Source: Panorpa germanica (taxonomy: Eukaryota > Arthropoda > Insecta > Mecoptera > Panorpidae). Taken from it: DNA of 64,000 bases. The notes below the pieces were generated by a model, which saw only the letters and a program-made list of their open reading frames with translations, was not told the DNA's origin and made no database searches. The stretch is taken from NCBI GenBank assembly GCA_963678705.1, contig OY783220.1, positions 2,563,001-2,627,000 of the forward strand. The letters run 5' to 3'. Shown piece by piece: positions 22,303 to 64,000 of the stretch. The stretch's first letter is position 1; each line of letters begins with the position of its first letter. Both the position numbers and the translations under genes were made by a program.

Positions 22303-22454
22303 ATTAGGTCAGGTCTAAAATGATGAATCATAGCACAAAAAGCCAATCCATCTCTCCAAGAAGTTGTCATATTTTCGACTTTGACGCCCCGGTAACCCTC
22401 GGTCATGCGACGGCACCACGTCTCGAGGGCTTTTGTTCCGCGTCGTTCGCCCAT
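22303..22454 (-). CDS. MICAL-like protein, coding exon 1 (start and first half of CH domain)
   Basis: On the minus strand an ATG at 22454 (context AATAAAATG) opens 50 codons plus two bases, ending in a donor (CTAAT then GTAAGTTTG). The peptide starts [16 protein letters not shown] and includes [12 protein letters not shown] and [19 protein letters not shown]. This is the N-terminal half of a calponin-homology domain as found at the very start of MICAL-like 1/2 proteins. The phase-2 junction joins seamlessly to exon 2 at 12980-13167, giving RPDL-I-DFDSL, a hallmark of this CH family. MICAL itself has a long monooxygenase domain before its CH domain. A start directly before the CH domain therefore favours MICAL-like (no enzyme domain). 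Function, by family: Rab effector and adaptor in endocytic recycling and actin organisation. Confidence 0.9.
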
Positions 22455-26129: not shown

Positions 26130-26430
26130 CCTGCTACTCTCGCTCCTGTTTCTACTCTGTCATTCCTTTTCTTTCCTCGTTCCTTTTCTCTATCTCCGCC
26201 ATTCACCTCCTCTCTTCATTGCCTCCCTTTAATAACTGCCCAATATTCTTTTCGCTTATTACCTTTTTCTCACAGGAAAACTTAATGTGCTCCAATGTTT
26301 CTATCTCCGTTCCGCACATCGTTTCTTCGCTAGTTGCCCAGTATCTGTTTCCTTTCTCCTTGTTTCCCAATCTAAATCTGGCAATCCTTCTCATGTTTTT
26401 GTGTCTTTTTCTCTTAAGTATTGTGGTATC
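26130..26430 (-). pseudogene. LINE ORF2 tail fragment, inverted
   Basis: The minus strand encodes MRRIARFRLGNKEKGNRYW and LEHIKFSCEKK, matching the LINE tail at 20295-20768. The Cys-x2-Cys knuckle is damaged: only MCG survives before TEIETLEHI. Downstream the frame decays. It is a dead, 5'-truncated copy. Confidence 0.75.
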
Positions 26431-27951
26431 TCTCTCAAATTCTTTTATATCTTTTGTTGTAATTGCTTTTCTAAATTTTTTCCATTCTTTCCTGTTGTTA
26501 ATAAAAATATTAACTTGCCAATTTTGTTACTATGTATTTCTTTATACGAAACGAGCAAAATATTTTAATGATCAAATTTAATCACTGTAGAAGAAGAGAT
26601 GAGTCTAGTCTGAGCACAAAATCGAGAATTTGGACTAAATTCCTAATTTCAGTGTACTGATTCTGAATATTTTTGTTTACCAATCCCTATTTTGTTGATT
26701 TAGACCCCCAGCCAGCTTGAAAAAATGGTAACTAAAAACGGATTTCTAGTTACAGTCCCGAGTTAAAAATTATTAAAAATCTTATAGAGAATTTCCTACA
26801 ATTTGAGTATACACAATTTTCAGTAGTTTCTTTTTAATATTTTCAAAAAAGATATTTTATTATACACGTAGTTTTTGAAACTCGTGTCACTATTTTTTCA
26901 TAGTTAAATATATGGTGAAATTGAGCTAAAACTTATAGATATAGAAATTGGGTATTTTTAATCATTTCTAAAAAGAAAACTATAAACCCAAGGTCATTGA
27001 AATTATGAGACAGCAACTTTGACGATATTTTCACCATTTATATAAAGTTCTGTACCCCCTTAAATAAAGAAGTTTAGGCGAACCTGTGGACGCTTATATT
27101 TACTGGAGCGCTTGATTAGAAAATTAGTGTATCTCCACCGACAATAATTATATTCACTTAAATAATCATAACTGACTCAATTCTGTTCATAGTTTTTAAT
27201 TACAAGAGTGGTAACCACAAAGATAAATGGTATTCATTTTATGATCATTAGTGCAGCAATTAAAAATGTTGTGTTAATTAAGAAAATAAAATAAAACTAA
27301 CAAATGCATTAATATCATTTAAATTACATGTTACAATTTCTGCATACTATTTTCCGTAAAACGATGACATCTATCTTTAGTTTCATGAAACATTTATTTA
27401 GATTAATGCCATAATAAAAAATGAGAAAGTCTCCATTGCAAGAAATGAGTATAATTTTTAAATGACATAATTAAAAAAAATGTCTCTTATTATGATTAGA
27501 AAGCGAGAACGTTGCACTTTAGAGCCGCTTACTGCAAAGCTATATTTTAATGCACTTATTATCATATATTTTTTGTTTTAAATAAAAATAATGAATTTAA
27601 TATTCATTTCATTTGGACGGGTTTCACATTGGAAACGTATATGCACGTATATTACCTCAAAAAGGAAATTTGAATAAATTTGTCATAATGCCATTGTAGA
27701 ATCTATTCAGAAAACATTTGGATATACATAGTATATTCAAGGTATATACATTCATGTATATTACATATCCTATATGCTGTTGTGATGTAAAACATACACA
27801 GTACGTTCTATGTATGTGCAAATGCAAAGGTATGTGCACATTTAAATATTGCTGCATGTCTGTCATGTTTATTCATTTATGTATATGCAATATATATACA
27901 TAGAATATTATTTTTACATTATGAAGCATGTATGAAAATACAGGAAATATC

Positions 27952-47454: not shown

Positions 47455-47660
47455 GAATTCAGTTTTATCCAGGCACAGATACTGGGGAAATAGAGAGGAA
47501 AAGATGTGCAGAGTGTGCTGGAGAGAGATAGAAATTTCGGAGCACATAAAGTATTCTTGTGAGAAAAGAAGAAAAAGTGAAAAGAAAAGAGAGAGTGAAG
47601 GGAAGCAGTAGATGACGAAGATTGAAGAGAAGGAGCGAGGAAAGAGAAGGAAAGGCATAG
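47455..47660 (+). pseudogene. Degraded LINE ORF2 tail
   Basis: Purine-rich. Fragments RYWGNREEKMCRVCWRE and SEHIKYSCEK can be read across frames, matching the CRVCG...LEHI knuckle of the LINE at 20295-20768. Several frameshifts and stops. Confidence 0.7.
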
Positions 47661-48699: not shown

Positions 48700-49215
48700 C
48701 ACCCAGCGTCAAAAAGTAGCACAGAACCTATTCGCCAAAAAAAAAAACAACGGAGAAGAAGCGCAGATAAGAGAGGTAGCGAAGAAAGTGGATTTCGAGA
48801 TAAAAAGGATGTGGAGGGGAAATACAAAAGAGCAGAGATATGCATAAATACTTTTAAAAAAGTATTTATAAATACAATATAGATCAGACTCCCAATTATC
48901 TTAAACCTTAGGCTGTATAAAAAGACATGTTGCCGTTACAACGCGTGGTCAAGGGAGTAGCTGAGGGAAGAGGGCGCTAGGATTTGAGAAAGAGAAAGAT
49001 ACCAGAATACATACGAGAAAAAGAGACAAGGAACATAAGAAGAATCGCCAGATTTAGATTGGGAAACGAAGAGAAAGGCAGTATATACTGGGAAAATAGA
49101 GAAGAAGGATGTGCAGGGTATGCTGGAGAGAGATAGAAACGCTGAAGCACATTAAGTAAGCATGTGAGAAAAGAGTTAAAAACATAAAGAAGATTGTCTC
49201 GTTATTAAAAGGAAG
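48700..49215 (+). pseudogene. Two degraded LINE tail fragments
   Basis: 48955-49215 carries broken frames reading RRIARFRLGNEEKG, then a damaged knuckle (CAGYAGER), then LKHIK, matching the ORF2 tail at 20295-20768. 48755-48850 carries a purine-rich segment (GTGGATTTCGAGATAAAAAG) like the LINE 3' UTR. The two are in rearranged order, so this is probably two insertions or a rearrangement. They end about 240 bases before the first PEBP gene. Confidence 0.65.
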
Positions 49216-49458: not shown

Positions 49459-50097
49459 ATGTTATTAAAAGCATTATTAATTAATCCTGTTATACGACAC
49501 TTCTCTTCCATTGCTTTGGCTTTCAGGAAGGCACAAATCGTTCCAAGGGTCATAACAAAGAGTCCATTGTTTCCATTACATGTTGAGTATTCACACCCTG
49601 TAAGAGTTGGGAAAAAAGTAGCTCTCAAAGAGGTATTAAGACCTCCTCTAACTGTTAAATGGAAGCAAGCTAAGGAAGACGGATTGTACACATTGTGCAT
49701 GGTAGATCCTGATTATCCAAGCCGCGGCAGCTTCAACCAGAAGGAATATCTTCACTGGCTTGTTGTCAATATACAAAGTGATAATATCTCCGGAGGAGAT
49801 GAAATAGCCAAATATATTGGTCCCAAGCCTCGACTGAATACTGGATGGCATAGATATGTGTTTCTCTTGTTCGCACAGGGAGATAACATTGATACCTCTT
49901 TTAAAAATCAATCCTTTAGCATATCTGAGGAAAAACGCAAGAGATTTTCTATTAGACGTTTTCAGCATTCCAATAACCTAACCAATCCCATTGCTGGTAA
50001 CTTTTTCCTCTCGCAGCAAAGCAGAGTACGTGCTGCAATGCGGCCAAGAAGATCTGACAGAGTCCAAATCGCCAGAAGTACTGTTCAGATGATATAA
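49459..50097 (+). CDS. PEBP family protein 1 of the cluster (basic C-terminus)
   Basis: A single-exon gene of 212 codons. The ATG at 49459 is the first in frame. PEBP core: RKAQIVPRVI at 23-32, DPDYPSR at 83-89, LHWLVVNI at 98-105, GWHRYVF at 129-135, FSIRRF near 163-168 and IAGNFF at 178-183. The anion-pocket residues Asp (DPD), His99 and His131 are kept. The usual GPP loop reads GPKP, and Tyr replaces Ala in DPDAP. The first 30 residues (MLLKALLINPVIRHFSSIAL...) have no acidic residue and several basic ones, like a mitochondrial presequence. The C-terminal tail is unusual: instead of the acidic RLxEGE helix of its neighbours it ends in an Arg-rich segment (RAAMRPRRSDRVQIARS). PEBPs bind phospholipid head groups and can modulate kinases; the role of this copy is unknown. 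Confidence 0.93.
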   Translation: MLLKALLINPVIRHFSSIALAFRKAQIVPRVITKSPLFPLHVEYSHPVRVGKKVALKEVLRPPLTVKWKQAKEDGLYTLCMVDPDYPSRGSFNQKEYLHWLVVNIQSDNISGGDEIAKYIGPKPRLNTGWHRYVFLLFAQGDNIDTSFKNQSFSISEEKRKRFSIRRFQHSNNLTNPIAGNFFLSQQSRVRAAMRPRRSDRVQIARSTVQMI

Positions 50098-50748
50098 AAA
50101 CCAGTTTTAGAAAATCGTATGCTAATTTGCACATATTGAACAATCCTAAACAAAAGGGCAAGCGTAACGTAAATTTGGTTATAAATTCTTGTTTGTTAAA
50201 AGATAAACAGCAAATTAAATGTTAATATTTTATTTTAATTGAAATGTTTATTAATCTAAATGATGTGCAAAGTTTGTGATGAAATACAAGATGTATTTAA
50301 AATACCTGAACTGATTATGCTTTCTTCAGATTTTACTTCCTTGTTCGTATTTAACGTCGAACTATTTCCGCTGCTGCTTATTCCTATTTTATTAAACAAT
50401 GTCATTATCTTAATTTATATAAAGAAAATGTTGCAACAGTGAACACTTGGCCATTGGCGCTGGCTACTGCTGGATATGTAATATTTCCTTCCACTATTGC
50501 AAACCTATGAATTCTTCATTTCACGTGATTTCATGAATCACTTGTTAAATCTAGTGGAATTGGAAATTCTCATGTTGAGGTGTGGCTTTCATTTGTTTAT
50601 TTTACGTTAAAAATTCAACATGAAACAATAACATAAAATAGACTCCAAAAAAATTTCTTATAAAATCTCCAATATAATAAAATTTAAAGTTTTTATTTTA
50701 AATTGCAACCTAAAAAAATTGTTAATATTAAATACCTATATCAGGAAA
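50098..50748. other. Spacer between PEBP genes 1 and 2
   Basis: 3' flank of gene 1 and 5' flank of gene 2. A SINE 3' fragment lies at 50345-50385 (minus; ATTTAACGTCGAACTATTTC then CGCTGCTG). The 60-codon frame at 50260-50442 overlaps it and is not supported as a gene. No obvious AATAAA close behind gene 1. Confidence 0.55.
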
Positions 50749-51426
50749 ATGTTTCTCAAAAATTCTTTATTCTATATTGCCAAGCGAGCACACACGACCA
50801 TTGGCGAAGCATTCCTTAATGCGGATATTGTTCCAGAGATAATAAGTAAACCTCCTGCACAAATACTGGAGCTGAACTACCACAAGAGAATCCGTCCTGG
50901 GACCCAATTGAAGCCAGCCCAGGTTGCTGAGAAGCCTTCGAGCGTAAGATGGCGTCCAGTCGATTACAGCAAGCTGTACACGCTGTGCATGACAGAACCA
51001 GAATCACCTTTTCGCACGGATGCCTTCCATCGGGAGTGGCTGCATTGGTTAATCGTAAATATAAAAGGAGACTTAATCTATCAAGGAGACACCATTGCTG
51101 AATATCTTGGTGCAGGACCTCCAAAGAATACAGGACCTCATCGTTATGTATACTTCATCTTCCAGCAACCACGATTAATCGATATCACAAAGGAACCTTA
51201 TTTGGATGGCAAAACATCAAGAGGACGTAACAATTTCTCTATCAGCAGTTTGCAAATTAAACACGATTTATCGGACCCTGTTGCTGGAAATTACTTTTAC
51301 TCACAATATGACAACACAGTTCCAGAGTTCTACAAGAGATTAGAAGAAGGAGAACGGCGAATCTTCCAACAGGAGCAAGTAACTAATGAAAAGATGCTGT
51401 ATGAAATTAAGCAGAAACGTTCATGA
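50749..51426 (+). CDS. PEBP family protein 2 of the cluster (EPESP variant)
   Basis: An intronless gene of 225 codons. I place the start at the ATG at 50749 (context GGAAAATG). The frame is open ten codons further up but has no ATG there, and this start gives an N-terminus of the same length as gene 3. Core: NADIVPEII at 24-32, EPESPFR at 83-89, REWLHWLIVNI at 95-105, GAGPPKNTGPHRYVY at 121-135, RGRNNFSIS at 158-166 and VAGNYFYSQYD at 178-188. The first Asp of the family DPDAPSR motif is Glu, as is the second, while both pocket histidines remain. The leader MFLKNSLFYIAKRAHTTIG is basic with no acid until residue 20, so mitochondrial import is plausible. The C-terminus is a charged helix starting YKRLEEGERR. 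Closest relative in the window is gene 3. A possible AATAAA lies at 51607. Confidence 0.93.
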   Translation: MFLKNSLFYIAKRAHTTIGEAFLNADIVPEIISKPPAQILELNYHKRIRPGTQLKPAQVAEKPSSVRWRPVDYSKLYTLCMTEPESPFRTDAFHREWLHWLIVNIKGDLIYQGDTIAEYLGAGPPKNTGPHRYVYFIFQQPRLIDITKEPYLDGKTSRGRNNFSISSLQIKHDLSDPVAGNYFYSQYDNTVPEFYKRLEEGERRIFQQEQVTNEKMLYEIKQKRS

Positions 51427-52630
51427 TTCCCAAAAGTAGTACAATGTCAAAATGAAAACAAAATCGTATTCCTTTTGCGTTCCGTTTATTTCTGATCTCC
51501 TCCTTTATCCAATATCCTTAACTCTTGTTTAAATTTATCTTGCACATCGTTCTCGTTGAGGAAATATAGTTAAGCTATGAAAGAATCCAAAAATATAACG
51601 TGAGAAAATAAAAACGAATTCACTTTATAATGTTGTAGTTATTATTTTATTTGAAGTACTATAACAGTTTTTATATAACATATACTTATACAGCCGATAA
51701 GTAACACTTCAAGATAAACCTGGATAATTTAAAAAGTTTATAAAATTATGCTTTGAGCTCTTCAGAATTTAATTTTACTGTGATTTTTCATTAGGCCTGT
51801 CGCACACTGCGAGAGTATTTAAGTGAATTTTGACCGGAAATATACGGTAAATGTAATGAATCTCGCACACTGCAAGCAACAAAGCCGTTCGAATACGGGC
51901 GTTACGTAGCTGTCATGCTGGAAGCGAATATCAGCAAATTTTAATCATGTGTATTACATGCTAAACCTATCCCTACCTTGTAAATGCAATCAGCCGTCTC
52001 AGACTGGAAGGGATATGGAACGGAAAGCAATAACAGTGGTGCATCGATAAAAATTAAATTAAAAGTTTGCTTTCATAACAATTTATGTTAGTGTAAAACA
52101 GCTCCAATACAAGTTTGACTTAGCATATTGTCGTATCGGTACGTGGTATGTATTTATTGTGATACAACACAGGAGTCAGCTTGCTTCAAGAGTTCTAGCC
52201 ACCTATTTACGCCCGAATTCGCTGTGGCTTAAATACACTTGCAGTGTGTGACAGGCCTTATGCTATTCCTTTCTTCCTATACATCTTAGAATGTACAGTT
52301 TAGCGCCTACAGGTTTTTGTCGCTCTTCTATTGTACCATATGCATAGTAATACTTGAGATATGCTTAATCCAGTAGGCCGACTATTTTCAAAAATAATAA
52401 TGGAAACAAGCATGTTTTGTTTTAATTTTATTACAAAACTAAAAATTAAACAGTAACCACGAATATACAAAAAAATCAAAATTCTAAATTATAAGTTTGG
52501 TTACTATACAGAAAGTTAATTAATTCTTTATTATATTGCGTAAATATATCAATTATCATTTGTGCAAAATAATTCAGTTTAATTACCAGAAAAAAATTAT
52601 AAAACAACAAGGAATATCGTTTTGTTCAAA
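51427..52630. other. Spacer between PEBP genes 2 and 3, with a MITE
   Basis: Holds the probable polyadenylation signal of gene 2 (AATAAA, 51607-51612) and MITE B (51794-52257). The rest is AT-rich flank. No gene. Confidence 0.6.
51791..52260. mobile_element. MITE B, Harbinger-like, TTA target duplication
   Basis: 464 bp at 51794-52257. The left arm GGCCTGTCGCACACTGCGAG and the reverse complement of the right arm GGCCTGTCACACACTGCAAG both continue GTATTTAAG after one or two bases. TTA flanks both ends (51791-51793 and 52258-52260). The 3-base target fits PIF/Harbinger. Non-coding. A similar left arm is embedded in MITE C at about 28130. Confidence 0.85.
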
Positions 52631-53326
52631 ATGTTTATCCGAACTCCATTGTTCCTCATTACGAAGAGATGTAAAACAACAATCACACAAGCCTTCAAGA
52701 AAGCAGACATCGTTCCAGACATCATCAGTATACCCCCGTCTAGGTTATTGGATGTGAAATATGTAAAGAATTTCCGCATAGCAACTAATGTAAAACCAAT
52801 AAGTGTGATGGAAAAACCCGGAAGTGTAAGATGGGAGCCCGTCGATTACAACAAGTTGCACACACTAGTCATGACAGAGCCGGAGTCTCCAACGCGTACC
52901 GATCCTAATCAGAGAGAGATGCTTCACTGGTTAGTGGTTAATATAAGAGGAGATCTGGTTTTCAATGGAGATACTTTAGCCGAATATATCGGAGTTATGC
53001 CTCCTGAAGATACAGGACCTCATAGATATGTTTTTCTGATTTTCTCTCAGCAGAATATAATTGATATAACTAAAGAAACTTATCTAAACGATAAAACTTT
53101 AAGAGGACGTAATAATTTCTCCGTTAGCACTTTCCAAATTAACCATAATTTATCTGATGCTATAGCTGGAAACTTTTTCTATGCAGAACATGACTCATCT
53201 GTACCGAAACTAAATAAGAAATATCGGGATGCGGAAAAGGAATTGTTGGATTCTGAACGTAAAGCTGCCATTATCAAGAGTGCTGCTATCCAAGAGAAGA
53301 GGAAGCAAAGACAACGCAATTCATAA
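52631..53326 (+). CDS. PEBP family protein 3 of the cluster (EPESP variant)
   Basis: An intronless gene of 231 codons starting at the ATG at 52631 (context TTCAAAATG). The frame extends three codons upstream without an ATG. Core: KADIVPDII at 24-32, EPESPTR at 83-89, REMLHWLVVNI at 95-105, GVMPPEDTGPHRYVF at 121-135, RGRNNFSVS at 158-166 and IAGNFFYAEHD at 178-188. It aligns with gene 2 without gaps from residue 1 to about 190 and shares EKP at 61-63, TEPESP, DTGPHRYV and the RGRNNFS block, so the two are recent duplicates. The leader MFIRTPLFLITKRCKTTITQ has five basic and no acidic residues before D26, which is presequence-like. The C-terminal tail is longer and more basic (KRKQRQRNS end). 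The EPE change removes the pocket Asp but keeps the negative charge. Confidence 0.94.
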   Translation: MFIRTPLFLITKRCKTTITQAFKKADIVPDIISIPPSRLLDVKYVKNFRIATNVKPISVMEKPGSVRWEPVDYNKLHTLVMTEPESPTRTDPNQREMLHWLVVNIRGDLVFNGDTLAEYIGVMPPEDTGPHRYVFLIFSQQNIIDITKETYLNDKTLRGRNNFSVSTFQINHNLSDAIAGNFFYAEHDSSVPKLNKKYRDAEKELLDSERKAAIIKSAAIQEKRKQRQRNS

Positions 53327-54350
53327 AACAAAATGATTATTTCATTACATGAAAAAATAGTATTGGAACCAGTTTAAATGTAATTACTTTTAAGCAAATG
53401 AATAGTAAATGGAAATAGTGTTATTAAAACATTTTATTTATTTGTACAATAAGTGTCTTTGTCAGAGTACTGTCTAATTGCCCTATATGAGTCTTCTGTG
53501 CATAAATTCTGCATCTTCCAAAACTGCTATATAGTTTCGCTTTAGGCAATATTAAGAATATATTGCAGAATGTGCGAAATAAATTTAATGGAATATTGAT
53601 CAAATACTGTACTACAGATTACACCATAGTACTACACCTAAGATGTAGTTAGTAAACGGACGAATATTTAACGAATTTTTATTTTATTAGTGACATCTTC
53701 GAATAAATTTTCAACGTAGACTTCTACTGCCATGGATAAATCTGCTGCTGGTTTTAATAATCTTTGCTTATATCAATTAACTCTAATATGGCACATAAAC
53801 TATCAATTTGATTGGCTTGGTCTTGGCCTTTGTTCACTTGACTACAGATGTGTCGGTCGTAAAACATGCACGAAAAGTTGCGTCCAAATGACTCCATCGT
53901 TTAAACGTGCCTTTTTAACTATCATTTAATGACTAGAGACCGTAATGGGATGTTTTTGGGCTCGTTTCGGTCATGTCATTTACAACCGGTGCCTATTATT
54001 GTCAATTGACCCTGTTGAAGGGGATGTTGAACATCGGACCCTGCAGGTTCCAACAAGGTTGGTCCATCTATTAGCCCCTTTAATAGTAAAGTAATTGTAG
54101 ACCAACGCTTTCAAAAAATCAAGTAAACTGCTAAAAGTTTTGTTTTGTGTGGCATATGCCTCATCCAATTAGAAAATGGTCATCTAAATTATAGTTAAAA
54201 TATAAATAAAAATGAACAAAAATACTAAAATTCATTAATAGCTATGCAGGTGTTATTTAGTACCAAGAAAAATATTTACGTCGATCGCGGCTAGTGCTGA
54301 CCAATGCAAACAGGTTAACAAATAAATGATATTCGTCAAAACGAACAAAA
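53327..54350. other. Spacer between PEBP genes 3 and 4
   Basis: An ATTAAA lies about 95 bases after gene 3. The interval 53700-54180 is GC-richer than the flanks and reads on the minus strand as broken protein-like pieces (LLDFLKALVYNYFTIKGANR; MIVKKARLNDGVIWTQLF) separated by stops. I do not recognise them; a decayed transposase is possible. No intact gene. Confidence 0.45.
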
Positions 54351-55046
54351 ATGTTCTTCCAAAAAATATTAAGACACCCTTCGTTACTTCATACTTCAAA
54401 AAGATTTTATAATGCATTCATCGATGCACTTGAAGGAGGTCAAGTCGTCCCTGATGTCCTTCCCAATGTACCTGCCGATGAGTTGACCATTGCATACATG
54501 AATACGCTTAAAATAGCTAAAGAAGTAAGTCCCCGATGCTTAGAATTTGCGCCAACATCGTTTCATGTCCCTGGTCTCAATCAAAAGGACCTGCATTCGA
54601 TAATAATGACAGATCCTGATCAACCAAGTCGACAGCTATCGGGTGGTAAGGAATTTATTCACTGGCTTGTGGTTAATATACCAGGAAATAAACTGGATAA
54701 AGGGAAACCTTTATTTGATTATGTTCCTCCAATTCCAAAACAAGGATCAGGATGCCATCGATTAGTATTTGCGTTGATAAAGCAAAATTGCAAAATTAAT
54801 GTGGCTAAAGAATGTGTTTATGATAACAAAACAAGAAGGGGCCGATATAATTTCTCTATTAGAAAATACATTTGTAAGAAAAGGTTACCCAATCCACTTG
54901 CTGCTACATATATTTTCACCAAATACATGCGTTATGTTGATATATTTGTTCGAAGGCTAGAAGATGGAGAAATTGAGGAAGATTTTAACAAAAGAGCAAA
55001 TAGACCACCGTTTTATTGCCCACCACAAAAACCTTGTAAAAACTAA
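54351..55046 (+). CDS. PEBP family protein 4 of the cluster (HRL variant, Cys/Pro tail)
   Basis: An intronless gene of 231 codons, ATG at 54351 (context AAAAATG). Core: GGQVVPDVL at 29-37, DPDQPSR at 88-94, FIHWLVVNI at 102-110, GCHRLVF at 134-140 and RGRYNFSIR at 163-171. The catalytic-like Asp and both His are present, but Tyr of HRY is Leu. The loop before it reads PPIPKQGSG instead of GPPKGTG, and the AGxxF motif near 183-188 is decayed (LAATYIF). The leader MFFQKILRHPSLLHTSKRFY is basic and free of acidic residues. The C-terminus has the acidic helix RRLEDGEIEEDF and then RPPFYCPPQKPCKN, a Cys/Pro tail shared in outline with gene 5. AATAAA at 55112-55117. Confidence 0.93.
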   Translation: MFFQKILRHPSLLHTSKRFYNAFIDALEGGQVVPDVLPNVPADELTIAYMNTLKIAKEVSPRCLEFAPTSFHVPGLNQKDLHSIIMTDPDQPSRQLSGGKEFIHWLVVNIPGNKLDKGKPLFDYVPPIPKQGSGCHRLVFALIKQNCKINVAKECVYDNKTRRGRYNFSIRKYICKKRLPNPLAATYIFTKYMRYVDIFVRRLEDGEIEEDFNKRANRPPFYCPPQKPCKN

Positions 55047-56076
55047 AAATAGAAATGATTCGATGTCTATGATTTAGATGTAAGCAAGATGTATTTAATT
55101 CGAGGAAAGCAAATAAACTAAACTCAACTTCTGTATAATTTTTCATATCAAATCTTTTATGGTTTTTATCTTTCTAATTTTAAAAAGAAGTAGTTTAGTA
55201 ATTTAAATATATAAAATTTGACTTACTTTAAAATTACTTTAAGCGGAAGAGATGGACTTACGGGAGTAATAAATACAGTTCTTGATGAGAGTACCTAATC
55301 TTACATCATTTGGAACCTACATATCCAAATATGACGTTCTAAATGCATTTTTCTCTCTGTCGGTTATGAAATGTGTTCAAACTAAAGCAAAGCTTCTGAA
55401 ACTCAATTATCGTTTAGCTTTAATTTTTCATCTGAACATTTTCCAATATTTCAACTTAAAAATTTCTGTAAAAACGTTGTCTTTCAATTATATTCCAGCA
55501 GTAAAGCACAGGTCAAAAGTTTGCAATTGCAAAACAGAATCAAAAAGATGATTTACGAATATTTTAATGGACACAATTTTATATCTTTATACAAATTTGC
55601 GCATGATCAATTTTGTCTTTATTCAAAAAATGTGAAATGTGAAAAAGAATAAAATTGTTGGCGACAATTACTAAAAAAAAGAGGTAATCTAAAGCTTTTC
55701 CTCGCGCAAGTAATCCAAGATCACGGCTGCAATAGCATATCAGATAATATTGCTAACTTAACAAATAACTTTCAATATGTTAGATAAAGATTTTATCTCT
55801 GGTAAAAAGTAATACTGTCGTGATAGAACTGTCATCATGTATTTGAGGCTTTAATTCACACATTTACAGCAATAAAAATAAAAGATACAATTTCGCTTTA
55901 TGATCAAGTAGCCATTAAATTAAACTAGTCCTTCAATAAACTAGTCCTCAATGGCTTTTATTTAAATTCAGACATAACCATGAAAATGAAAAATTTATAG
56001 AAAAAGTATGAAACATTAAAACAATATACAATTATTTAAAATTTTCGTAAAGCAATAGATAGAATTTAAATCAAAG
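55047..56076. other. Spacer between PEBP genes 4 and 5
   Basis: Probable polyadenylation signal of gene 4 at 55112-55117. An 89-codon plus-strand frame at 55282-55551 has no family resemblance and no PEBP motif, so I do not call it. No repeats recognised. Confidence 0.5.
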
Positions 56077-56781
56077 ATGCTACCATCTAAGCTACAGCAT
56101 GCACAATTACGGAAGATACTCTTTAGGTACGTTCCGAAAAGAAATGGTGGCGGCTTAGAAAAAATGTATGCTGATGCCCGTATTGTGCCAGACCTTATGG
56201 ACGGTCCACCCCACGTGGAACTGAGGGTTGCATATCGCACATGGATTAAAAAGGCCACGGAACTGAAGCCTAACTGCACCGGACTGAAACCTGTTGAACT
56301 TGACTGGGCAAAAGCAAACAAGGATAGCTTGCATACCATATTACTTACAGATCCGGACGTGCCTAGTAGAGCAGACAACAGAGACGCTGAGTTTCTTCAC
56401 TGGTTAGTAGTTAATGTCCCAGGTAGGGAGTTCAAAAAAGGAGATACGGTGGCAGACTACGTACAACCTGTACCAAAGAAAGATACGGGGCTGCACAGAT
56501 TGTGTTTCAATGTGTTCAAACAATGCTACAGAATTGACCTGGATACAGAAATCTTATTGGACTCTAAAAGTGGTAGAGGGCGTTGTCAATTTAATACTAG
56601 AAGGTATCAGGACAAACACTTATTTAGTAGACCCTTAGCTGGTACATTCTTCTATTCTCAGTTTGACGAAAGTGTTACCAGGACTCAAATTCGACTTCAC
56701 GAAGGAACAATAGAGAGAGATGCCATTTATCGCGAACAAGTAAAAGGACCTTATTGCCACCCTCCAAAAAAGAAGAAGTAA
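56077..56781 (+). CDS. PEBP family protein 5 of the cluster (HRL variant, Cys/Pro tail)
   Basis: An intronless gene of 234 codons, ATG at 56077. Core: DARIVPDLM at 33-41, DPDVPSR at 92-98, FLHWLVVNV at 106-114, PVPKKDTGLHRLCF at 131-144, SGRGRCQFNTRRY at 165-177 and LAGTFFYSQFDESV at 187-200. The pocket Asp and both His are intact, Tyr of HRY is Leu, and the GPP loop reads PVPKK. The leader MLPSKLQHAQLRKILFRYVP continues KRNGGG: seven Lys or Arg and one His, no acid until residue 28, a strong presequence candidate. The tail KGPYCHPPKKKK matches the YC-x-PP pattern of gene 4, so the two are likely sisters. AATAAA at 56830-56835. Confidence 0.94.
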   Translation: MLPSKLQHAQLRKILFRYVPKRNGGGLEKMYADARIVPDLMDGPPHVELRVAYRTWIKKATELKPNCTGLKPVELDWAKANKDSLHTILLTDPDVPSRADNRDAEFLHWLVVNVPGREFKKGDTVADYVQPVPKKDTGLHRLCFNVFKQCYRIDLDTEILLDSKSGRGRCQFNTRRYQDKHLFSRPLAGTFFYSQFDESVTRTQIRLHEGTIERDAIYREQVKGPYCHPPKKKK

Positions 56782-57152
56782 TACCTAATGACTCACCGAT
56801 TGTATATATAATGCCATTAATATCTTGTAAATAAATAATTTTTCTACTTTACCTGTTAATCTATTAATTCTGATGGAATAAAACATTCCACATGGTTACT
56901 ACAACAGCCAACCATCGGAACCTACAAAGTTCATTTTAAAAAGTGAAGGAATCTAATACTCTCAACAATTAGAAGTTAGGCAATGTCCTTCCGCAGCTAG
57001 TTAAAGGTAGTTAATGCTATGAAGTCACTTCTGTTAATTTAACTACTACTCTTACGTTTAATTAGGACAGTGATTAATTGAGACACTGATGTTTCAATGC
57101 TTGGCTATGATTTATCTGAGTTCAAATATTGAGCAGATGTGTTTGTTTTCCT

Positions 57153-57628
57153 AATGGGCTTGTGTCCTCATTTTCTAGTGGTCGATTTTTCAATTGTTGA
57201 TTGAAATTGAAGTTAATAAATGTGTATTGGCGTGTCTATTTTATTAAATATCTAAATGTTGACGAAGATATAGCAATTCAAAATTTGAATTGTAGTTTTA
57301 GCGCTAGAAATGGTCACCCATATTTGTATGACATGAAATGCATTTTAACGTCAGTTATTTGTTGAGTAGGTCAGTGCTGTGGTAATGTTTTGTAGTTGTT
57401 GGTAGTCAAAATAATCAAGTTAAGTCAAAGAATAATAAGTTTTTATTTTATTTAACCCTGCTAAGGCAGACATAATATTGGAATTTTATTGTTCCTTGAC
57501 ATAGCTGTAAATAATATTTGATATTTTGATATATAAATACATATAGCAGAGATTTATGAGCTGTAAGGTTGGCATCGGTTGTGATGTCACATGCATTTGT
57601 AATGTGTACAACGTTAAATTCCTTTAAT
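57153..57628 (+). mobile_element. MITE A, truncated copy
   Basis: Starts with the intact left terminus AATGGGCTTGTGTCCT and follows the 23136 copy up to CCTTTAAT, where the next copy begins. The right third, with the right terminus, is missing. After the second copy the flank resumes TTAAAGA, which also follows the break point in intact copies but then diverges. Insertion of copy 2 into copy 1 followed by loss is possible but unproven. Confidence 0.8.
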
Positions 57629-58543
57629 AATGGGCTTGTGTCCTCATTTTTTAGTGGTCGATTTTTCAATTGTTGATTGAAATTGATGTTAATAAATGTG
57701 TATTGGCGTGTCTATTTTATTAAATATCTAAATATTGACAAAGATATAGCAATTAAAAGTTTGAATTGTAGTTTTAGCGCTAGAAATGGTCACCCATATT
57801 TGTATGACATGAAATGCATTTTAACGTCAGTTATTTGTTGAGTAGGTCAGTGTTGTGGTAATGTTTTGTAGCTGTTGGTACTCAAACAATCCAGTCAAGT
57901 CAAAGAATAATAAGTTTTTACCTTATTTTACCCTGTTAAGGCAGACATAATATTGAAATTTTATTGTTTCTTGAAATAACTGTAAATAATATTTGATATT
58001 TTGATATATCTTGGACTCCTAAACTACTTAACCGATTTTAATCAAATTTGTACACCGTGTGCAGTTTGATCCAACTTGAAAGATAGGATAGCTTACATCT
58101 CAACTTATGATTGCAATATTATCTTATTGCAAATTATTTGTCTATTAATTATCTGTTAGCTCCAAACGATTGTAAAAGATGGCGACATCTGTTGACTAGA
58201 TTGAGTAAATATTCAATAGATGGCGCTATGTAATGTAATATGACAAAAACGTTAGTCACAGCAACGCGTGGCCGGGACAGCTAGTAAATATATATAGCAG
58301 AGATTTATGATCTGTAAGGTTGGTAACCTTACACAAGGATTGTGATGTCACATGCATTTGGAGTTTGTACAACGTTGAATCCCTTTAATAATTAAAGAGA
58401 CAAAATGACTTTTTTAATTGTTAATGTCTCCTAACATATAAGGAGTTATTAAAAAATAATTGAACATTTGAGGTTCTAGTAACCCACTTTATCAATATAT
58501 AGTACACTTTTATAAAAATTAAGACATAGGACACAATCCCATT
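57629..58543 (+). mobile_element. MITE A, complete copy split by a Helitron
   Basis: Left terminus at 57629 and right terminus (GGACACAATCCCATT, one mismatch) ending at 58543. Without the 276-bp Helitron at 58009-58284 it is 639 bp, the same length as the 23136 copy. It is non-coding; a minus-strand frame across 57448-57669 spans the junction of the two MITEs by chance. Confidence 0.85.
58009..58284 (+). mobile_element. Non-autonomous Helitron, copy 2
   Basis: Begins TC, ends CTAG, and sits between A (58008) and T (58285). The uninterrupted MITE A copies read GATATATAAATA at this point, so removal of TC...CTAG restores the site exactly, with no target duplication. This is the Helitron insertion rule. 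It lacks about 40 bases present at the 5' end of the copy at 10697-11025 and the 25-bp internal duplication of that copy. No coding capacity. Confidence 0.88.
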
Positions 58544-58975
58544 AAAGATTTAAATACTTATGGAGCTTCCATAAAACACTAACACGCTGAACACACTATA
58601 TCATTGCAGATTTAATTGTATCCAATTATAGTTGCTTTGTGTGAACTTTTTTTTGTTTTTCAGCGAGAGAGGCAATAACTAGCCTTCAACGGTAGGTCTG
58701 TTTCTTATCTTTGGGAGGATATGGCTCTTCGCCCCTTTCATTACGCTTCTAAGTGGCATTTTCCGTGGAAATCCAGTAACAGGCCAATCGGACACCCCTG
58801 GTCGATAGTCAATTGTTTTACATTACTACTAAAAATACTAAACATGTAACGGCACACAAAAAAAATATTAAAAATAAATTGTCTAAATTTAAAAGTATTC
58901 ATCTCTCTAAAGAAAACTAACTTATAAATTAACAAAACAACTACTGTTTAGGAAGCAAGCAATAATATCAACGAA

Positions 58976-59659
58976 ATGTTAAGAACGTCATTTATATGTA
59001 CTCGTATATCCACCAGACGACTATCTTGTCTGGCTAAGGCTTTTAGAACTCACAAAATAGTACCAGATGTCCTAAAGAAAGCACCCCACACACTGTTGGA
59101 AATTACTTATCAGGCACAGTTCAAATACGGTAAGAAAATGACGCCGACGGACGTGGCGGAAATTCCATCATTTGTAAAATGGCGGTCTGCTGACTGTAGA
59201 GCTATGCACACGGTGGTCATGCTGGACCCTGATGCGCCCAGCCGCGACAATCCTGCATTCAAAGAATGGTTGCATTGGTTAGTTGTTAACATTCCAGGAC
59301 ATGACTTATGCCAAGGTGATACTGTCGCCCAATATCTTGGACCGGGACCACCAAAAGGTACAGGACTTCATAGATACGTTTTCCTTGCTTTCCAACAAGA
59401 CGACGAGATTGATTTAAAAAAATTAACTATTCTTAACAATAAAACTGGAAGAGGACGATCTCACTTTTCAATAAATAAATTCAAATGCAAACATGGCCTA
59501 GGAGAAGCTTTTGCTGGAAATTTCTTTCTTGCTGAATATGATCAATCTGTTGATGGTTTTTATAGCAGACTCGCTGAAGGCGAAAAACGTCAAGCAGCAA
59601 AGGATGCAATTGCTGGAAGAAAGGAACCCTTGCCGTTTAATGTTCAATTAAGAAAATAA
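58976..59659 (+). CDS. PEBP family protein 6 of the cluster (canonical pocket)
   Basis: An intronless gene of 227 codons, ATG at 58976 (context ACGAAATG). This is the most canonical copy: HKIVPDVL at 26-33, MTPTDV at 55-60, DPDAPSR at 84-90, FKEWLHWLVVNIPG at 95-108, GPGPPKGTGLHRYVF at 122-136, TGRGRSHFSINKF at 157-169 and FAGNFFLAEYDQSV at 179-192. All phospholipid head-group pocket residues (Asp84, His100, the GPP loop, His132, Tyr134) are in place, so phosphate ligand binding is expected. The leader MLRTSFICTRISTRRLSCLA has four Arg, is Ser/Thr-rich and has no acid before D31, a textbook-looking mitochondrial presequence. The tail YSRLAEGEKRQAAKD matches the usual C-terminal helix. AATAAA at 59672-59677. 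Confidence 0.96.
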   Translation: MLRTSFICTRISTRRLSCLAKAFRTHKIVPDVLKKAPHTLLEITYQAQFKYGKKMTPTDVAEIPSFVKWRSADCRAMHTVVMLDPDAPSRDNPAFKEWLHWLVVNIPGHDLCQGDTVAQYLGPGPPKGTGLHRYVFLAFQQDDEIDLKKLTILNNKTGRGRSHFSINKFKCKHGLGEAFAGNFFLAEYDQSVDGFYSRLAEGEKRQAAKDAIAGRKEPLPFNVQLRK

Positions 59660-61001
59660 TGTGTTCCGTTCAATAAATAATGATACCACTCTAAATTACA
59701 AAATTTCAGACTTATAGTATTACTTTTCAACATGTATGGATGTATGTATGTACGTACGTTTATATAAAAGTGTTTGCTATCAATAGTCATTCCAATTAAA
59801 AATAGATTTCCAATTAAAATAAAAACGACGAATTTTCATTTTTAAGACGAATTTTTAAGGTGAATGATGTGCAGTGAGTTTTAAGTTTGGTTTGTAAGGT
59901 CAAAGTCTTTGTGCGTTAAGTGTCTAGCTAGAACTTGCTCCCTGAACACTGATTCTCACTACACGGTAGGGGCAAATAGAGTTTTCTATGTGCTTTGAGT
60001 CTTATTATTTAGGTTAGTGAACGTCGAAGTTGTTTTCACTTTTTATTAATTAACAAAACTTATTTATTTACATACCGCCGCGGGCTAGAGTGTGGATGCA
60101 AAGCCAATATATATCTTTCACTATTGTATTTTCTTAATATCTGAATTTTATCTAAAGCATTTGCTGTGTGTTTGTGCAACACACGGGATATGCGTTTCAA
60201 CATTAGTTCTGGACTTGAGCCTTTAATACTCTACGTAGTATTTACGTAGAAAATATCTTAGTTTGAGGCACTGTTTTAGGCGTGCTTGTATTAATAACCA
60301 AAAAATATCTTAAACTAACAATAGTATTCATAATATCTTAACCTAACAATATTAACATAAGATTACCATTCAAGTTTATGAATTATTTCATTTCTAAACA
60401 GTGAATGTCGAATAAAACATAGGGTCTGTATGGAAAATAATCTCATATTAGCGAAAATTAAAGACCGTAGGGATCGTTTTTTTAATTTTCGGTTGAATTA
60501 ATTTTTTATATACATATATGTTGACGGAGTTATAGCTAAATCAACTTTTAATTTTAGTTTTCCCGCTTGACTTTGGCATTTTCTCTGTCCTCTACTTCGC
60601 CATTCTAAACTCCATGTTTCTCCTCCATGTTCTCCCTCTTTCCTTTCTTCTTCTCTGTAGCTGCGCATTACAGTTTCTTCATTCTCTGGAGCGTTTGACT
60701 TATAATGAAACTGAAGTCAATTGGTTCTAAGAAGCAATGAAATGTCTTCCACACAACAAGCTGTTATTGTTAAATCAAGTAGACGATATATCATGCGTTC
60801 CTTTGTTATTAATTACAAAATTAAAAATGAAGCAATAAGCATTACACAAAAAAGGAAAAAAATTATTAAAATTCATTAAAATTTAAAATTACTAAATTAG
60901 ATACGTATATTTGTTTCAATTCACATTCAAATTTTATTTTCACTTTATTTTAGAACAACAATTATCTATACTATCAAAAAAAAAAACTTTATCATCAAAA
61001 A
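59660..61001. other. Spacer between PEBP genes 6 and 7
   Basis: AATAAA of gene 6 at 59672. Around 60470-60560 the sequence (TTGACGGAGTTATAGCTAAA) loosely resembles the MITE A left half. 60580-60660 is pyrimidine-rich and could be an inverted LINE scrap. No gene. Confidence 0.5.
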
Positions 61002-61694
61002 ATGAAACATTACGGACTATTACTTAAACCACCAATATTCTTAATGAACAAGAGGACAATTGCCAGCGTTATACAGGGTTTCAGACAATCATCCATTGTG
61101 CCAGATGTTCTCCATAGAGCTCCCGAGGAATTATTGGAGGTTGACTTCAATTACAATCCATTAAGTTTCGGAAGTACTGTAACATCAAAATTTGTAACGG
61201 ATGAGCCAATGGTTACTTGGAAATTCCCTGATCCTTCCAAGAAATACACGTTGTGCATGGTAAATCCGGATTCTCCAACACGGGCCAACCCAGTCAACAG
61301 AGAGTGGCTTCACTGGCTTGTTGTTAACATACCAGGAGATTTGATAGAGAGAGGGGACACAATAGCAGAGTACATCGGTGCAAGTTCAGATGAGACAACA
61401 GGTATCCGGCGTTATGTGTTCTTAGTCTTCTTGCAATCGATGAATATTGATGCACGCAAACTGAGATACATCAGTACTGACATGACCAGTGGCCGCTCTT
61501 GTTTCTCTACGTTGGGATTTCAAAATAGATACCAATTGTCTGCTCCTATTGCTGGTAACTATTTTTATTCCAAATGTGAAGTACCGTTGGCTGTTCAGTT
61601 CAGTAGAATTAGGGAAAGGGCTCACAGACCTAAGGTCGATAGAACTCCTTCTGTATGGGTGAGTCTTAATCCTGCATATGTGAGCAAAGATTAA
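61002..61694 (+). CDS. PEBP family protein 7 of the cluster (pocket residues lost)
   Basis: An intronless gene of 230 codons, ATG at 61002. Fold motifs are clear: SSIVPDVL at 30-37, REWLHWLVVNIPG at 100-112, RRYVFLVF at 136-143, SGRSCFSTLGF at 163-173 and IAGNYFYSKCE at 183-193. Two of the strongest pocket positions are changed: DPDAPSR is NPDSPTR (88-94), losing the first Asp, and GLHRY is GIRRY (134-138), losing the second His to Arg. The GPPKGTG loop is also replaced by ASSDETTG. Only His104 of the classic set remains. The frame is intact and the fold core conserved, so this looks like a functional protein with changed or lost ligand binding rather than a pseudogene. Leader (MKHYGLLLKPPIFLMNKRTI...) basic, with no acid until D35. 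The tail is short, without the RLxEGE helix. Confidence 0.93.
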   Translation: MKHYGLLLKPPIFLMNKRTIASVIQGFRQSSIVPDVLHRAPEELLEVDFNYNPLSFGSTVTSKFVTDEPMVTWKFPDPSKKYTLCMVNPDSPTRANPVNREWLHWLVVNIPGDLIERGDTIAEYIGASSDETTGIRRYVFLVFLQSMNIDARKLRYISTDMTSGRSCFSTLGFQNRYQLSAPIAGNYFYSKCEVPLAVQFSRIRERAHRPKVDRTPSVWVSLNPAYVSKD

Positions 61695-62073
61695 AATATG
61701 ACCGGACTGTCGAAATCTTATTTTTCTTATGATTCTAACTGCTTATGTCTTACTGTTACGAAGTGAACAAGAGCAAGATGTCGTAGAAGCATGCAATGGT
61801 AAAGATGTAACATAAGTGCTACAATAAGGAAAACGGAATAACTAGCATGACAGTTCCTAAGAAGTTCTTGCTAGGAAAGGTTGAGTAGTAGTAGCCGAAT
61901 AACAATGCACGAATTTCATTTATTTTGTTATGGCTGACAACACAATCTAGACAGCTTTGTAGCATTTCATTTTGTTTCTGTAATGTTTGTAAAATAAGAA
62001 AATTATCTATAACCCCAAAAAAAATTATTGTATACCAAAAAATCCAATTTCCATATAATTTCATAATATCACA
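61695..62073. other. Spacer between PEBP genes 7 and 8
   Basis: The shortest spacer of the cluster (379 bases). A minus-strand frame here has no family resemblance. Any promoter of gene 8 must lie in this interval or in gene 7; I see no clear TATA box or AATAAA. Confidence 0.5.
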
Positions 62074-62709
62074 ATGTCTCAAGCGAAATTAGCAGGCAGT
62101 CTCTCTTGCATGGCGAGGCAAATGAGGATAGAAAAAATCATTCCTGAAGTCATCAAGTTCGCCCCAAAGACAACTTTGCATGTCTCTTACGATACAACGT
62201 TCAAAGTGGGAGACGTATTAACTCCAACGGCTGTGAAATGTGTACCGAGGGACATTACTTGGCCGACGCAAGATCCTAAGAGATTGTATGCGTTGGCATT
62301 AGTGGATCCTGATGCCCCAAGTCGAAAAACACCAACATTTCGGGAATGGCAACATTGGATAGTTATCAATATGCCCGGAAACTGCATTCCAATGGCACAT
62401 ACGATTGTTGAATATATAGGATCTGCTCCTCCAAAGGACACGGGTTTACATCGATACATCTTTCTAGTATTCCGTCAAAAACATGAAGTTGATCCAGAGG
62501 AAGAAAGACGACTTTGTAGCCATACAGCAGAAGGCCGCGGTAAATTCTCGATTTGTAAGTTTCAGCAAAAGCACAATTTCGAAGATATACCTGAGGCTGG
62601 AACATATTTCAGAGCGGCGTATGATCATTCAGTAGATGAAACATATAAAAGACTTGCAGCAGGAGAAGCTGCAGATAAAAAAAGAAGGCAAAAAGCAGGA
62701 AAAAAGTAA
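62074..62709 (+). CDS. PEBP family protein 8 of the cluster (canonical pocket, shortest)
   Basis: An intronless gene of 211 codons, ATG at 62074 (context CACAATG). Core: EKIIPEVIKFAP at 20-31, VLTPTAVKCVP at 48-58, DPDAPSR at 78-84, FREWQHWIVINMPG at 89-102, GSAPPKDTGLHRYIF at 116-130, EGRGKFSICKF at 153-163 and AGTYFRAAYDHSVDETYKRL at 175-194. The pocket is complete (Asp78, His94, PP at 119-120, His126, Tyr128). The N-terminus MSQAKLAGSLSCMARQMRI is shorter and less hydrophobic than those of its neighbours but still basic and without acidic residues before E20. Mitochondrial targeting is less certain here. The C-terminus ends in a Lys-rich run (KKRRQKAGKK). AATAAA at 62749-62754. It resembles typical insect PEBPs most closely together with gene 6. 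Confidence 0.95.
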   Translation: MSQAKLAGSLSCMARQMRIEKIIPEVIKFAPKTTLHVSYDTTFKVGDVLTPTAVKCVPRDITWPTQDPKRLYALALVDPDAPSRKTPTFREWQHWIVINMPGNCIPMAHTIVEYIGSAPPKDTGLHRYIFLVFRQKHEVDPEEERRLCSHTAEGRGKFSICKFQQKHNFEDIPEAGTYFRAAYDHSVDETYKRLAAGEAADKKRRQKAGKK

Positions 62710-64000
62710 ATATCTACCACTCAATCTCATGAATTTTATATAAAATTAAATAAATAATTAACAAAAATAATGAACAATTATAAATCAAGATGCAAAACTG
62801 AACGGTTATTTTTTTTTGTATATCTGCAAAGTGGGGTGGGGAGGGTTTCCGAAAGTGTGATAAAACGTGTCAAAGTGGGAAGGCCTTAAAAACAGATGAC
62901 GTCTGCATTATGCCTATACTCTGTCGTTGGGACATGTTTTTTTTTATTTGATTACTAAAGATTATTACAATCTATCCTGCTTAGAGGACATTCAGTGATA
63001 TGTATGTTAAAATAAAGTGTTTTCTGCTAATTAGCTGGTATCAGTTGCGCACATCATGTGAGAGCAGAACTTTTTAAAGTGCTCAACTGTGTGAAGCACT
63101 GCTGTAGTTGAAACATTCAATGCTGAGCATAATGCCGCATTATGCGCTCTAGTGTCGTGATTGGAAATCACCCATTATAAAGCCATAATGAGTAGGAATT
63201 CATAATTGGATGACGAAGTTTATGGACGACTGCTTATGACACTAATTTAATAATAAATCGAAAATAATAAAAATAAAATAAATATTTAAATTTCATTTCG
63301 GTGTACAATGTGAAAAAACAAAAGGAGAGAAATATCTATCTCTAAATAGTGAAATTATTTCAATATAATTGTAACCACGTATTCTGGAAATATGCCATAG
63401 ACGATAAACCTTGTTACATGGAAGGCCGCCAATGTCATCGAGGTCAAGGCAAGCATAATGGATCCGATTAAAGTATGTTCTGCTTTATAAGGAAGTATAA
63501 AGTATAGTCCGAAGCAATAACCATAGTGCAAATGCATCAAATCACGGACGCGGAAATTTTACTAAAATAAATAAAAAGATCAAATGGTGTTTTCTTTTCA
63601 GGATTCAGTTCCGATATCTTTTATGACATTATCACAGTGTTGGCCTGTTCTTTTACACTTGGCTTGTGTTCTCATTTTGTAGTGGTCGATTTTTCAATTG
63701 TTGATTGAACTTTTTTCTACACTCTCACCCATTACCAGTTACTGAGCATTTAAAACTTAATTTTTATATATATTACACATGAAATAACACTTGAAATTTA
63801 CGACAATGTTAATAATAAATTCACAGCAGTTACCTCCACGTCCGAGTCCGAGTTCAAGATCAAGCCCAAGAACGAAGCCCCACGGCCAAGGTCGAAGCAA
63901 TTAAATGAATCATAGACTCGTACTTCTGCTGGGGCAACTACATTACTTTTTTCAATTGCTTAAACATTTCTAATCCCATGCTCTTCGTGCCCACTGCATT
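62710..64000. other. Right flank of the cluster
   Basis: Polyadenylation signal of gene 8 at 62749. It also contains a possible small membrane ORF on the minus strand (63355-63537) and a fragment of the MITE A left end (63659-63710, GGCTTGTGTTCTCATTTTGT). A Ser/Pro/Arg-rich open piece at 63827-63903 follows a TTCACAG acceptor-like site and stops at TAA; it may be a terminal exon of an unknown plus-strand gene, but support is weak. Confidence 0.45.
63355..63537 (-). CDS. Possible small membrane protein or terminal exon
   Basis: The minus strand has an ATG at 63537 followed by 60 codons. The peptide starts MHLHYGYCFGLYFILPYKAE and has a second hydrophobic stretch LIGSIMLALTSMTLAAF, then VTRFIVYGIFPEYV, giving two likely membrane segments with ordered, non-random composition. 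A good acceptor (TTTATTTATTTTAG) lies just upstream, but the codon directly after it in this frame is TAA. If spliced there, the ATG at 63537 would have to be the start. I do not recognise the family. It could be a real small gene with a 5' UTR intron, or a chance frame. Confidence 0.3.
   Translation of the reverse strand: MHLHYGYCFGLYFILPYKAEHTLIGSIMLALTSMTLAAFHVTRFIVYGIFPEYVVTIILK

Follow-up and report, generated by a model that had tools for sequence, protein, structure and literature searches.

The stretch analysed here, called the window, comprises 64,000 nucleotides of the Panorpa germanica genome (contig OY783220.1, numbered C17; C17:2563001-2627000). Between window positions 49459 and 62709, the + strand carries eight ATG-to-stop reading frames of 211-234 amino acids (aa), each read from the open reading frames as a single exon and each encoding a protein of the PEBP family. 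All eight scored above the curated cut-off of the PF01161 profile, with E values of 1.2e-11 to 2e-18, and an in-frame stop was located 5-39 codons 5' of every ATG. Frames, profile matches and upstream stops agree with the initial annotation of this DNA, which had described eight single-exon PEBP genes following each other on one strand. The eight copies are given below, with changes at ligand-site residues in mammalian numbering and tree support in brackets.

49459..50097, + strand: PEBP copy 1, 212 aa, single exon, PF01161 E 1.2e-16; putative presequence 49459-49503 (15 aa, MLLKALLINPVIRHF)
50749..51426, + strand: PEBP copy 2, 225 aa, single exon, PF01161 E 1.4e-12; putative presequence 50749-50793 (15 aa); D70 changed to E; sister of copy 3 (99/95)
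52631..53326, + strand: PEBP copy 3, 231 aa, single exon, PF01161 E 3.8e-13; putative presequence 52631-52675 (15 aa); D70 changed to E
54351..55046, + strand: PEBP copy 4, 231 aa, single exon, PF01161 E 1.2e-11; putative presequence 54351-54410 (20 aa, ending RFY); Y120 changed to L; sister of copy 5 (96/96)
56077..56781, + strand: PEBP copy 5, 234 aa, single exon, PF01161 E 7.8e-13; putative presequence 56077-56148 (24 aa); Y120 changed to L
58976..59659, + strand: PEBP copy 6, 227 aa, single exon, PF01161 E 2e-18; putative presequence 58976-59023 (16 aa, ending RRL); canonical at the 14 checked positions
61002..61694, + strand: PEBP copy 7, 230 aa, single exon, PF01161 E 2e-12; putative presequence 61002-61061 (20 aa, ending RTI); H118 changed to R and D70 to N
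62074..62709, + strand: PEBP copy 8, 211 aa, single exon, PF01161 E 3.7e-15; short N-terminus without the Arg site described below; canonical at the 14 checked positions

Pairwise identity among these copies is about 27-58%. Searching the window by tblastn with the eight copies gave no extra match below E 0.28, and hence neither a ninth copy nor a pseudogene. The coding sequences have a G+C content of 36-43%, against 22-35% in their 300-base flanks. The word CNAAATT, a testis-promoter element of flies, was found in 4 of the 8 upstream regions (p 0.014); it was picked post hoc, the remaining shared words being mostly A-rich, and neither the count nor the assumed identity was used as support. 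An acceptor-like polypyrimidine-TAG at 60937-60953, 48 bases 5' of the copy 7 ATG, may mark an intron in the 5' untranslated region.

The array extends beyond the window. A search of the 464 Mb assembly with copy 6 as query gave 14 single-frame matches in a row, and a family query gave 13, missing copy 11, which is barely over the PF01161 cut-off (26.2 bits vs 24). Only the best candidates were scored in these searches, so that the locus counts given here are lower bounds. The complete array consists of 14 single-exon copies, all on the + strand, in C17:2612459-2642230 (29,772 bases), with gaps of 379-4,340 bases between neighbours. The six copies downstream of the window are frames of 214-230 aa located in loci L009 and L010, and PF01161 matched them as it did the eight others, making 14 out of 14. 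The genome search detected no PEBP match in the 10 kb starting at C17:2647001 (L011). Between copies 11 and 12 lies an odorant-receptor-like frame (L009:7363-8106, corresponding to C17:2634363-2635106; 7tm_6 E 8.9e-8). Relatives of the copies were also sought in viral contigs and prokaryote genome contigs, where tblastn upheld none.

At least 7 other PEBP-domain loci, matched piecewise, were identified in the same genome, which amounts to at least 21 loci with the 14 of the array. Names used below are given where they apply.

C11:3.19 Mb: paralogue C11
C6:1.41 Mb: paralogue C6
C16:12.06 Mb: paralogue C16
C11:13.82 Mb: paralogue C11b
C6:3.77 Mb: paralogue C6b
C17:6.25 Mb: PEBP-domain locus (C17:6.245 Mb, L017) that looks mL38-like by eye
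C21:45.49 Mb: locus that looks by eye like a diverged PEBP

The five named paralogues were modelled, their exon borders being set manually on the basis of tblastn matches and splice signals; the later models are not fully independent of the first two. In each model four introns divide the coding sequence into five exons. The 20 introns are all GT-AG, with phases 0, 1, 1 and 2 at homologous residues (after residues 24, 65, 111 and 136 in C6; 59, 100, 146 and 171 in C11). Exon 4 of C6b is longer by two codons, its fourth intron still being equidistant from the following RGKFS motif. The weak spots of the models are the odd first donor (GTTTAA) and uncertain 3' end of C6b, and the first exon of C16, which may start further upstream. 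All four introns are absent from the 14 array copies, whose frame is continuous and shows no gap within three columns of the intron sites. The array is located on C17 and the modelled paralogues on C6, C11 and C16, as anticipated for a retrogene, and the only other PEBP-domain match that the genome search gave on C17 is 3.6 Mb away from the array. With four introns gone from all 14 copies and the nearest other PEBP match on the contig at this distance, one retroposition is the simplest explanation. Considering also that the array forms a single clade (see below), we hold with high confidence that it arose by retroposition plus tandem duplication, as the initial annotation had proposed. That annotation had also recommended searching related genomes for an intron-containing parent gene; within this genome, five intron-bearing paralogues were recovered. 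It would have been contradicted by an ancestral gene that was itself intronless and carried the same N-terminal leader, and none was found within this genome.

Unrooted trees were built from all 14 copies together with the genome's own paralogues. Using the core only (22 rows), the array was recovered as one clade with a support of 96/96; the corresponding values were 94/97 for full-length sequences, 93/95 when copy 1, which has a long branch, was left out, and 96/95 for the core alone. Sister pairs were formed by neighbouring copies (2-3, 4-5, 10-11 and 12-13), which fits the prediction of tandem duplication. C11, C16 and C11b constitute a separate intron-bearing clade (97/95), two members of which, C11 and C11b, have signal-peptide-like starts, suggesting that secreted PEBPs are encoded in the same genome.

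We calculated for each of the 28 pairs of window copies the proportion of synonymous differences (ps) and the nonsynonymous divergence (dN) of the core. Synonymous sites were saturated or nearly so in all pairs (ps 0.63-0.83), with a lower core dN of 0.35-0.89, so that the window copies are old genes maintained at the protein level. Since synonymous sites are mostly saturated, relics of a poly(A) tract or of a target-site duplication are not expected to survive. For copies 12 and 13, dN and the synonymous divergence (dS) were 0.38 and 2.89 in the core, and 0.16 and 1.05 in the leader; judged by these substitutions, the leader of this pair is translated and constrained.

The IVPDV box is located 21-35 residues from the protein start in the array copies. 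No Asp or Glu occurs within the first 17 residues of any of the 14 copies, where the net charge is +2 to +5. At the acid frequency of the core, the absence of Asp and Glu from residues 2-17 in all 14 copies has a log10 P of -10.9, a value that counts the copies as independent although they are homologous. In window copies 1 to 8 the acid-free N-terminal runs are 42, 19, 25, 24, 27, 30, 34 and 19 residues long, respectively. The initial annotation had credited all eight with acid-free starts of 19-34 residues extending to the box; an acid-free run was indeed found in all eight, with lengths spanning 19-42 residues, and when the leaders are measured to the box 5 of the 8 contain Asp or Glu. Ahead of the presumed cleavage site, or of the position aligned with it in copy 8, all eight are free of acidic residues. 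The 11-residue helical moment is 0.50-0.85 and the maximum 11-residue mean hydropathy 0.29-1.93 over the 14 copies, copy 8 having the weakest presequence features. Every one of the 14 leaders is thus basic, acid-free, amphipathic-capable and devoid of a long hydrophobic core, as required of a presequence.

Seven of the eight window copies carry an Arg at a constant distance of 14 residues ahead of the box; two further residues separate it from a pair that is mostly small (RHF|SS, RAH|TT, RCK|TT, RFY|NA, RNG|GG, RRL|SC and RTI|AS). None of 200,000 leader shuffles reached seven or more copies with Arg at that position, a test that overstates significance, the copies being homologous. The Arg site is similar to the R-3 pattern that results from cleavage by the mitochondrial processing peptidase and Icp55. 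Downstream, copies 9, 10, 11 and 14 exhibit KR at residues 12-13. In a profile alignment the residue after the Arg site aligns to S5 of Tm16 (PDB 5tvd), an ordinary PEBP, and the pairwise alignment of copy 6 with Tm16, which keeps this register, starts two residues further on; leader removal would therefore restore an ordinary PEBP N-terminus. AlphaFold2 modelling of copy 6 gave residues 1-14 a predicted local distance difference test (pLDDT) score below 50 and placed the first helix at residues 18-25, the presumed cut falling after residue 16. The usual insect protein had been said to begin at the box; C6 starts 9 residues before it, and C16 starts 5 before it if its MEE start is right, so that the statement needs correcting for these two ordinary PEBPs of the genome.

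We then compared the starts of the paralogues. C6 begins with MTTVLKEAEIVPDV and has a net charge of -3 in its first 17 residues, a stretch that is acidic as well in C6b (-6) and in C16 read from MEE (-5; the true start of C16 is uncertain). C11 and C11b start with strongly hydrophobic, signal-peptide-like segments, their 11-residue hydropathy maxima being 3.10 and 3.03 vs 0.29-1.93 in the array. A mitochondrial-type leader is therefore present in none of the four readable paralogue N-termini, two of which are acidic and two secretory-looking, the fifth (C16) being uncertain. The leader might nevertheless have been inherited, if the parent mRNA came from a C11-like gene whose first exon contained M16 and a basic, acid-free stretch (MFSRSPILCSAKR). 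Read from M16, C11 has a net charge of +3 in 17 residues and its first acid not before residue 26, and it shares with copies 1, 2, 3, 9, 10, 11 and 14 the register Met, 11 residues, Arg. Its identity to these seven copies is 9, however, compared with a mean of 5.4 for shuffled C11 (p 0.14); the upstream Met of C11 yields a hydrophobic start (3.10) like that of C11b (3.03), which a signal peptide explains better; and C11, C16 and C11b have a clade of their own. We regard inheritance of the leader as unlikely, while counting it among the chief alternatives. Because the readable paralogues start acidic or signal-peptide-like, and because the identity of C11 from M16 does not rise above that of the shuffles, we think that the retrocopy obtained its presequence at retroposition or later. 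The earlier proposal that the retrocopy gained it is thus supported, not proved, given the uncertain start of C16.

The AlphaFold2 model of copy 6 (pLDDT 75.6) has the PEBP fold. Its best match in the PDB is 5tvd (E 8.8e-19, template modelling score by target 0.88), followed by human PEBP1. The ligand-site residues, whose functional roles are familiar from the mammalian protein, are unequally kept: H86 and R119 in 14 of the 14 copies, H118 in 13, D70 in 9 and Y120 in 7. Of the array copies, just 6 and 8 are canonical at all 14 checked core positions; C6 and C11 are too. The C-termini of all 14 copies reach beyond those of C6 and C11, the last 29-48 residues of the window copies having a net charge of 0 to +6. 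A fold that is kept, a binding site that drifts and copies that are maintained fit functional divergence, and the residue changes suggest an altered function, perhaps towards a structural role.

To account for these data we favour, with some reserve, a retrocopy that gained a mitochondrial-type presequence and was tandemly expanded, its products being imported. The mRNA of an ancestral intron-bearing PEBP gene would have been retroposed to another chromosome (contig C17), becoming a functional single-exon gene. A presequence of roughly 15-24 residues would then have been added to the N-terminus of its product, and tandem duplication of this founder would have given rise to the 14 copies. Most products would be synthesised in the cytosol, directed to mitochondria by their basic leader and cleaved close to the Arg site, the mature protein starting about where ordinary insect PEBPs start. 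Copies with a canonical site may bind a phospholipid head group or another anion inside the mitochondrion, and copies altered at D70, H118 or Y120 would be diverged, possibly structural, proteins. We infer the import, cleavage, location and ligand of the products from their sequences. The likeliest tissue would be the male germ line. Duplicated nuclear mitochondrial genes of Drosophila melanogaster with tissue-specific expression are described as all testis-specific (PMC8950493), and three of eight fly PEBPs, CG10298, CG17917 and CG30060, as testis-preferring (PMC9037272). By analogy, expression of most copies in the male germ line is a guess based on priors, to which we grant slightly less than an even chance.

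Several observations weigh against this interpretation, in the first place for the leaders. The mitochondrial-type leader had initially been attributed to all eight window copies; seven bear it out by their Arg site, and copy 8 has a short N-terminus, with a ten-residue start and no Arg site. The strict motif R-x-[FYLI]-[STAN] fits only 4 of the 8 copies; the loose motif, composed after the leaders had been inspected, fits 7; and 322 random ATG-started reads matched the strict motif in 6.8% and the loose one in 11.5% of cases. The Arg-to-box spacing is not constant downstream (13 in copies 9 and 10, 16 in copies 11 and 14), and copies 12 and 13 are without the KR motif. Among the 322 ATG-started reads, taken from window positions 1-48500, 14.9% had no acid and a net charge of at least +3 in 20 residues, vs 5 of the 8 copies, and a single acid-free basic leader is unremarkable in AT-rich DNA. 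Constraint on the leader, clear in copies 12/13, is weaker in copies 4/5 (dN 1.27, dS 2.36), 10/11 (dN 0.68, dS 1.56) and 2/3 (proportion of nonsynonymous differences, pn, 0.30; ps 0.80). Summed over 91 pairs, leader differences at codon positions 1, 2 and 3 number 1348, 1214 and 1485, respectively, which is a small third-position excess. Moreover, the fly proteins CG7054, PEBP1 and CG10298 are reported to be distributed through all compartments of cultured cells (PMC9037272). The frequency of such starts in random reads, the limited fit of the strict motif, the uneven leader constraint and the diffuse fly proteins would all be expected if the leaders were non-mitochondrial, that is, short basic extensions in an AT-rich genome, the proteins being cytosolic or on another route. 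This alternative has to contend with a feature found in all 14 copies, mostly saturated at synonymous sites, with a leader dN far below dS in copies 12/13, and with leaders whose hydrophobicity is far below that of the secretory-type starts in C11 and C11b. We consider it a minority possibility, and mitochondrial import of most copies, as predicted from their leaders, to be probable.

The trees raise a further difficulty. When only the eight window copies and three PDB sequences were included, the array was not recovered as one group (2 changes, 38% bootstrap trees), and the unrooted tree places mammalian PEBP1 with the insect paralogues. With this grouping and in an unrooted tree, the split between array and paralogues may reflect either fast evolution or an older origin of the array. 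The position of the array outside the group of mammalian PEBP1 and insect paralogues is consistent with an origin without any retrocopy, the introns having been lost in place (for instance by repeated gene conversion with cDNA) or the array being an old subfamily that never had these introns. The long branches of the array make such a deep placement doubtful, though, and with four introns gone from all 14 copies at gap-free sites one retroposition is simpler, so that we rate these origins as improbable. Downstream of the stops, AATAAA was not enriched, being found within 150 bases in 4 of the 8 window copies for a background of 0.36. As regards the male germ line, term searches did not find PEBP named in the main text of either of two studies, one on the fly sperm proteome (PMC9494239) and one on honeybee spermatogenesis (PMC10721206), and a PEBP of the tsetse spermatophore is given as female-biased (PMC4742874).

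Other features were observed around the array. Degenerate fragments resembling the 3' end of the reverse transcriptase of a long interspersed nuclear element (LINE) are located at 20274-20768 (+ strand; zf-RVT match sub-threshold), 26203-26526 (- strand), 47500-47586 and 49105-49191, the last two being a repeat pair of 78% identity; one LINE-like fragment lies shortly 5' of PEBP copy 1. A two-copy direct repeat with a spacing of about 476 bases (pieces 96%/91% identical), plus a partial copy, occupies 57147-58009 and 63650-63712, between PEBP copies 5 and 6 and 3' of copy 8. The - strand encodes a MICAL-like gene with a first coding exon at about 22305-22454 (set by pattern and eye) and a CH-domain exon at 12980-13167 (PF00307 E 1.7e-8; closest PDB entry MICAL-3). 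About 27 kb separate this gene from the PEBP array, with no clear gene between them among the selected frames scanned.

Finally, we compared the array with known systems. It shares with canonical animal PEBP/RKIP proteins (Tm16 5tvd, CG7054 and mammalian PEBP1) the family, the fold and the DPD-P-R, H86 and G-HR motifs; Tm16 is the closest PDB match by both sequence and fold, mammalian PEBP1 and CG7054 coming next by sequence. It differs from them by the absence of the paralogue introns, the mitochondrial-type leader, the longer C-terminus and, in 12 of the 14 copies, a change at one or more of the 14 core positions. Like the proposed array products, mL38/MRPL38 is a PEBP-domain protein working in mitochondria. 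It has about 165 residues before its PEBP part (167-337 of 380 in 4ce4) and is a weaker match than PEBP1; identity of the array with this mitoribosomal protein was ruled out by length (211-234 aa in the window, 214-230 aa downstream), by the box at 21-35 and by score. Mouse PEBP-2 (1kn3) is another PEBP-family match in the PDB. It is a duplicated PEBP linked to testis, and we know of no mitochondrial leader in it.

Large tandem arrays of insect PEBPs are already known. Of the 202 PEBPs of the whitefly Bemisia tabaci, 127 belong to five large tandem clusters, most being insecticide-responsive; 15 other arthropods had no more than 16 PEBPs (PMC5157087). These clusters resemble the present array as large tandem arrays; they differ by the 202-gene scale, and the part of PMC5157087 covered here has no word on mitochondrial leaders or missing introns. 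An ordinary tandem expansion for detoxification or immunity, as proposed for the whitefly, could apply here whatever the compartment, since the PEBP-domain loci of this genome (at least 21) exceed the maximum of 16 in the other arthropods. The array copies are intronless and carry mitochondrial-type leaders, on both of which that same part is silent for the whitefly, and we judge this explanation rather unlikely. By title, none of the open-access literature matches listed was a report of a mitochondrial PEBP array, or of an intronless one, in an insect; nor do these titles mention a retroposed founder together with mitochondrial-type leaders and 14 maintained copies. The array provides a clear case of one retrocopy founding a 14-member family, apparently with a change of compartment, and its products form a set of new candidates for mitochondrial proteins in an insect. 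A mitochondrial location of the products would mean that a fold of cytosolic kinase regulators and secreted proteins had been recruited in bulk into an organelle; with cytosolic products the array would keep its value as an example of retrogene multiplication.

As closest functional model and working analogue we take the S-Lap family of Drosophila, an expanded family that carries signals for mitochondrial targeting, is altered at catalytic residues and forms part of the paracrystalline material of sperm mitochondria (PMC6388916). The likeness lies in an expanded insect family, targeting signals and altered site residues. The difference is that S-Laps are leucyl aminopeptidases of 50-60 kDa whose testis role was established by experiment (PMC6388916), that of the array being proposed only. 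By this analogy the array might encode a lineage-specific set of mitochondrial PEBP-fold proteins for sperm mitochondrial derivatives, arisen by retroposition: diverged proteins that formerly bound ligands and now form an S-Lap-like structural or lipid-organising material, with one or two copies (6 and 8) keeping the ligand site; we put this forward as a speculative extension, with low confidence. Should the products prove mitochondrial, the 14 copies would offer a defined gene set for probing the make-up of insect sperm mitochondrial derivatives.

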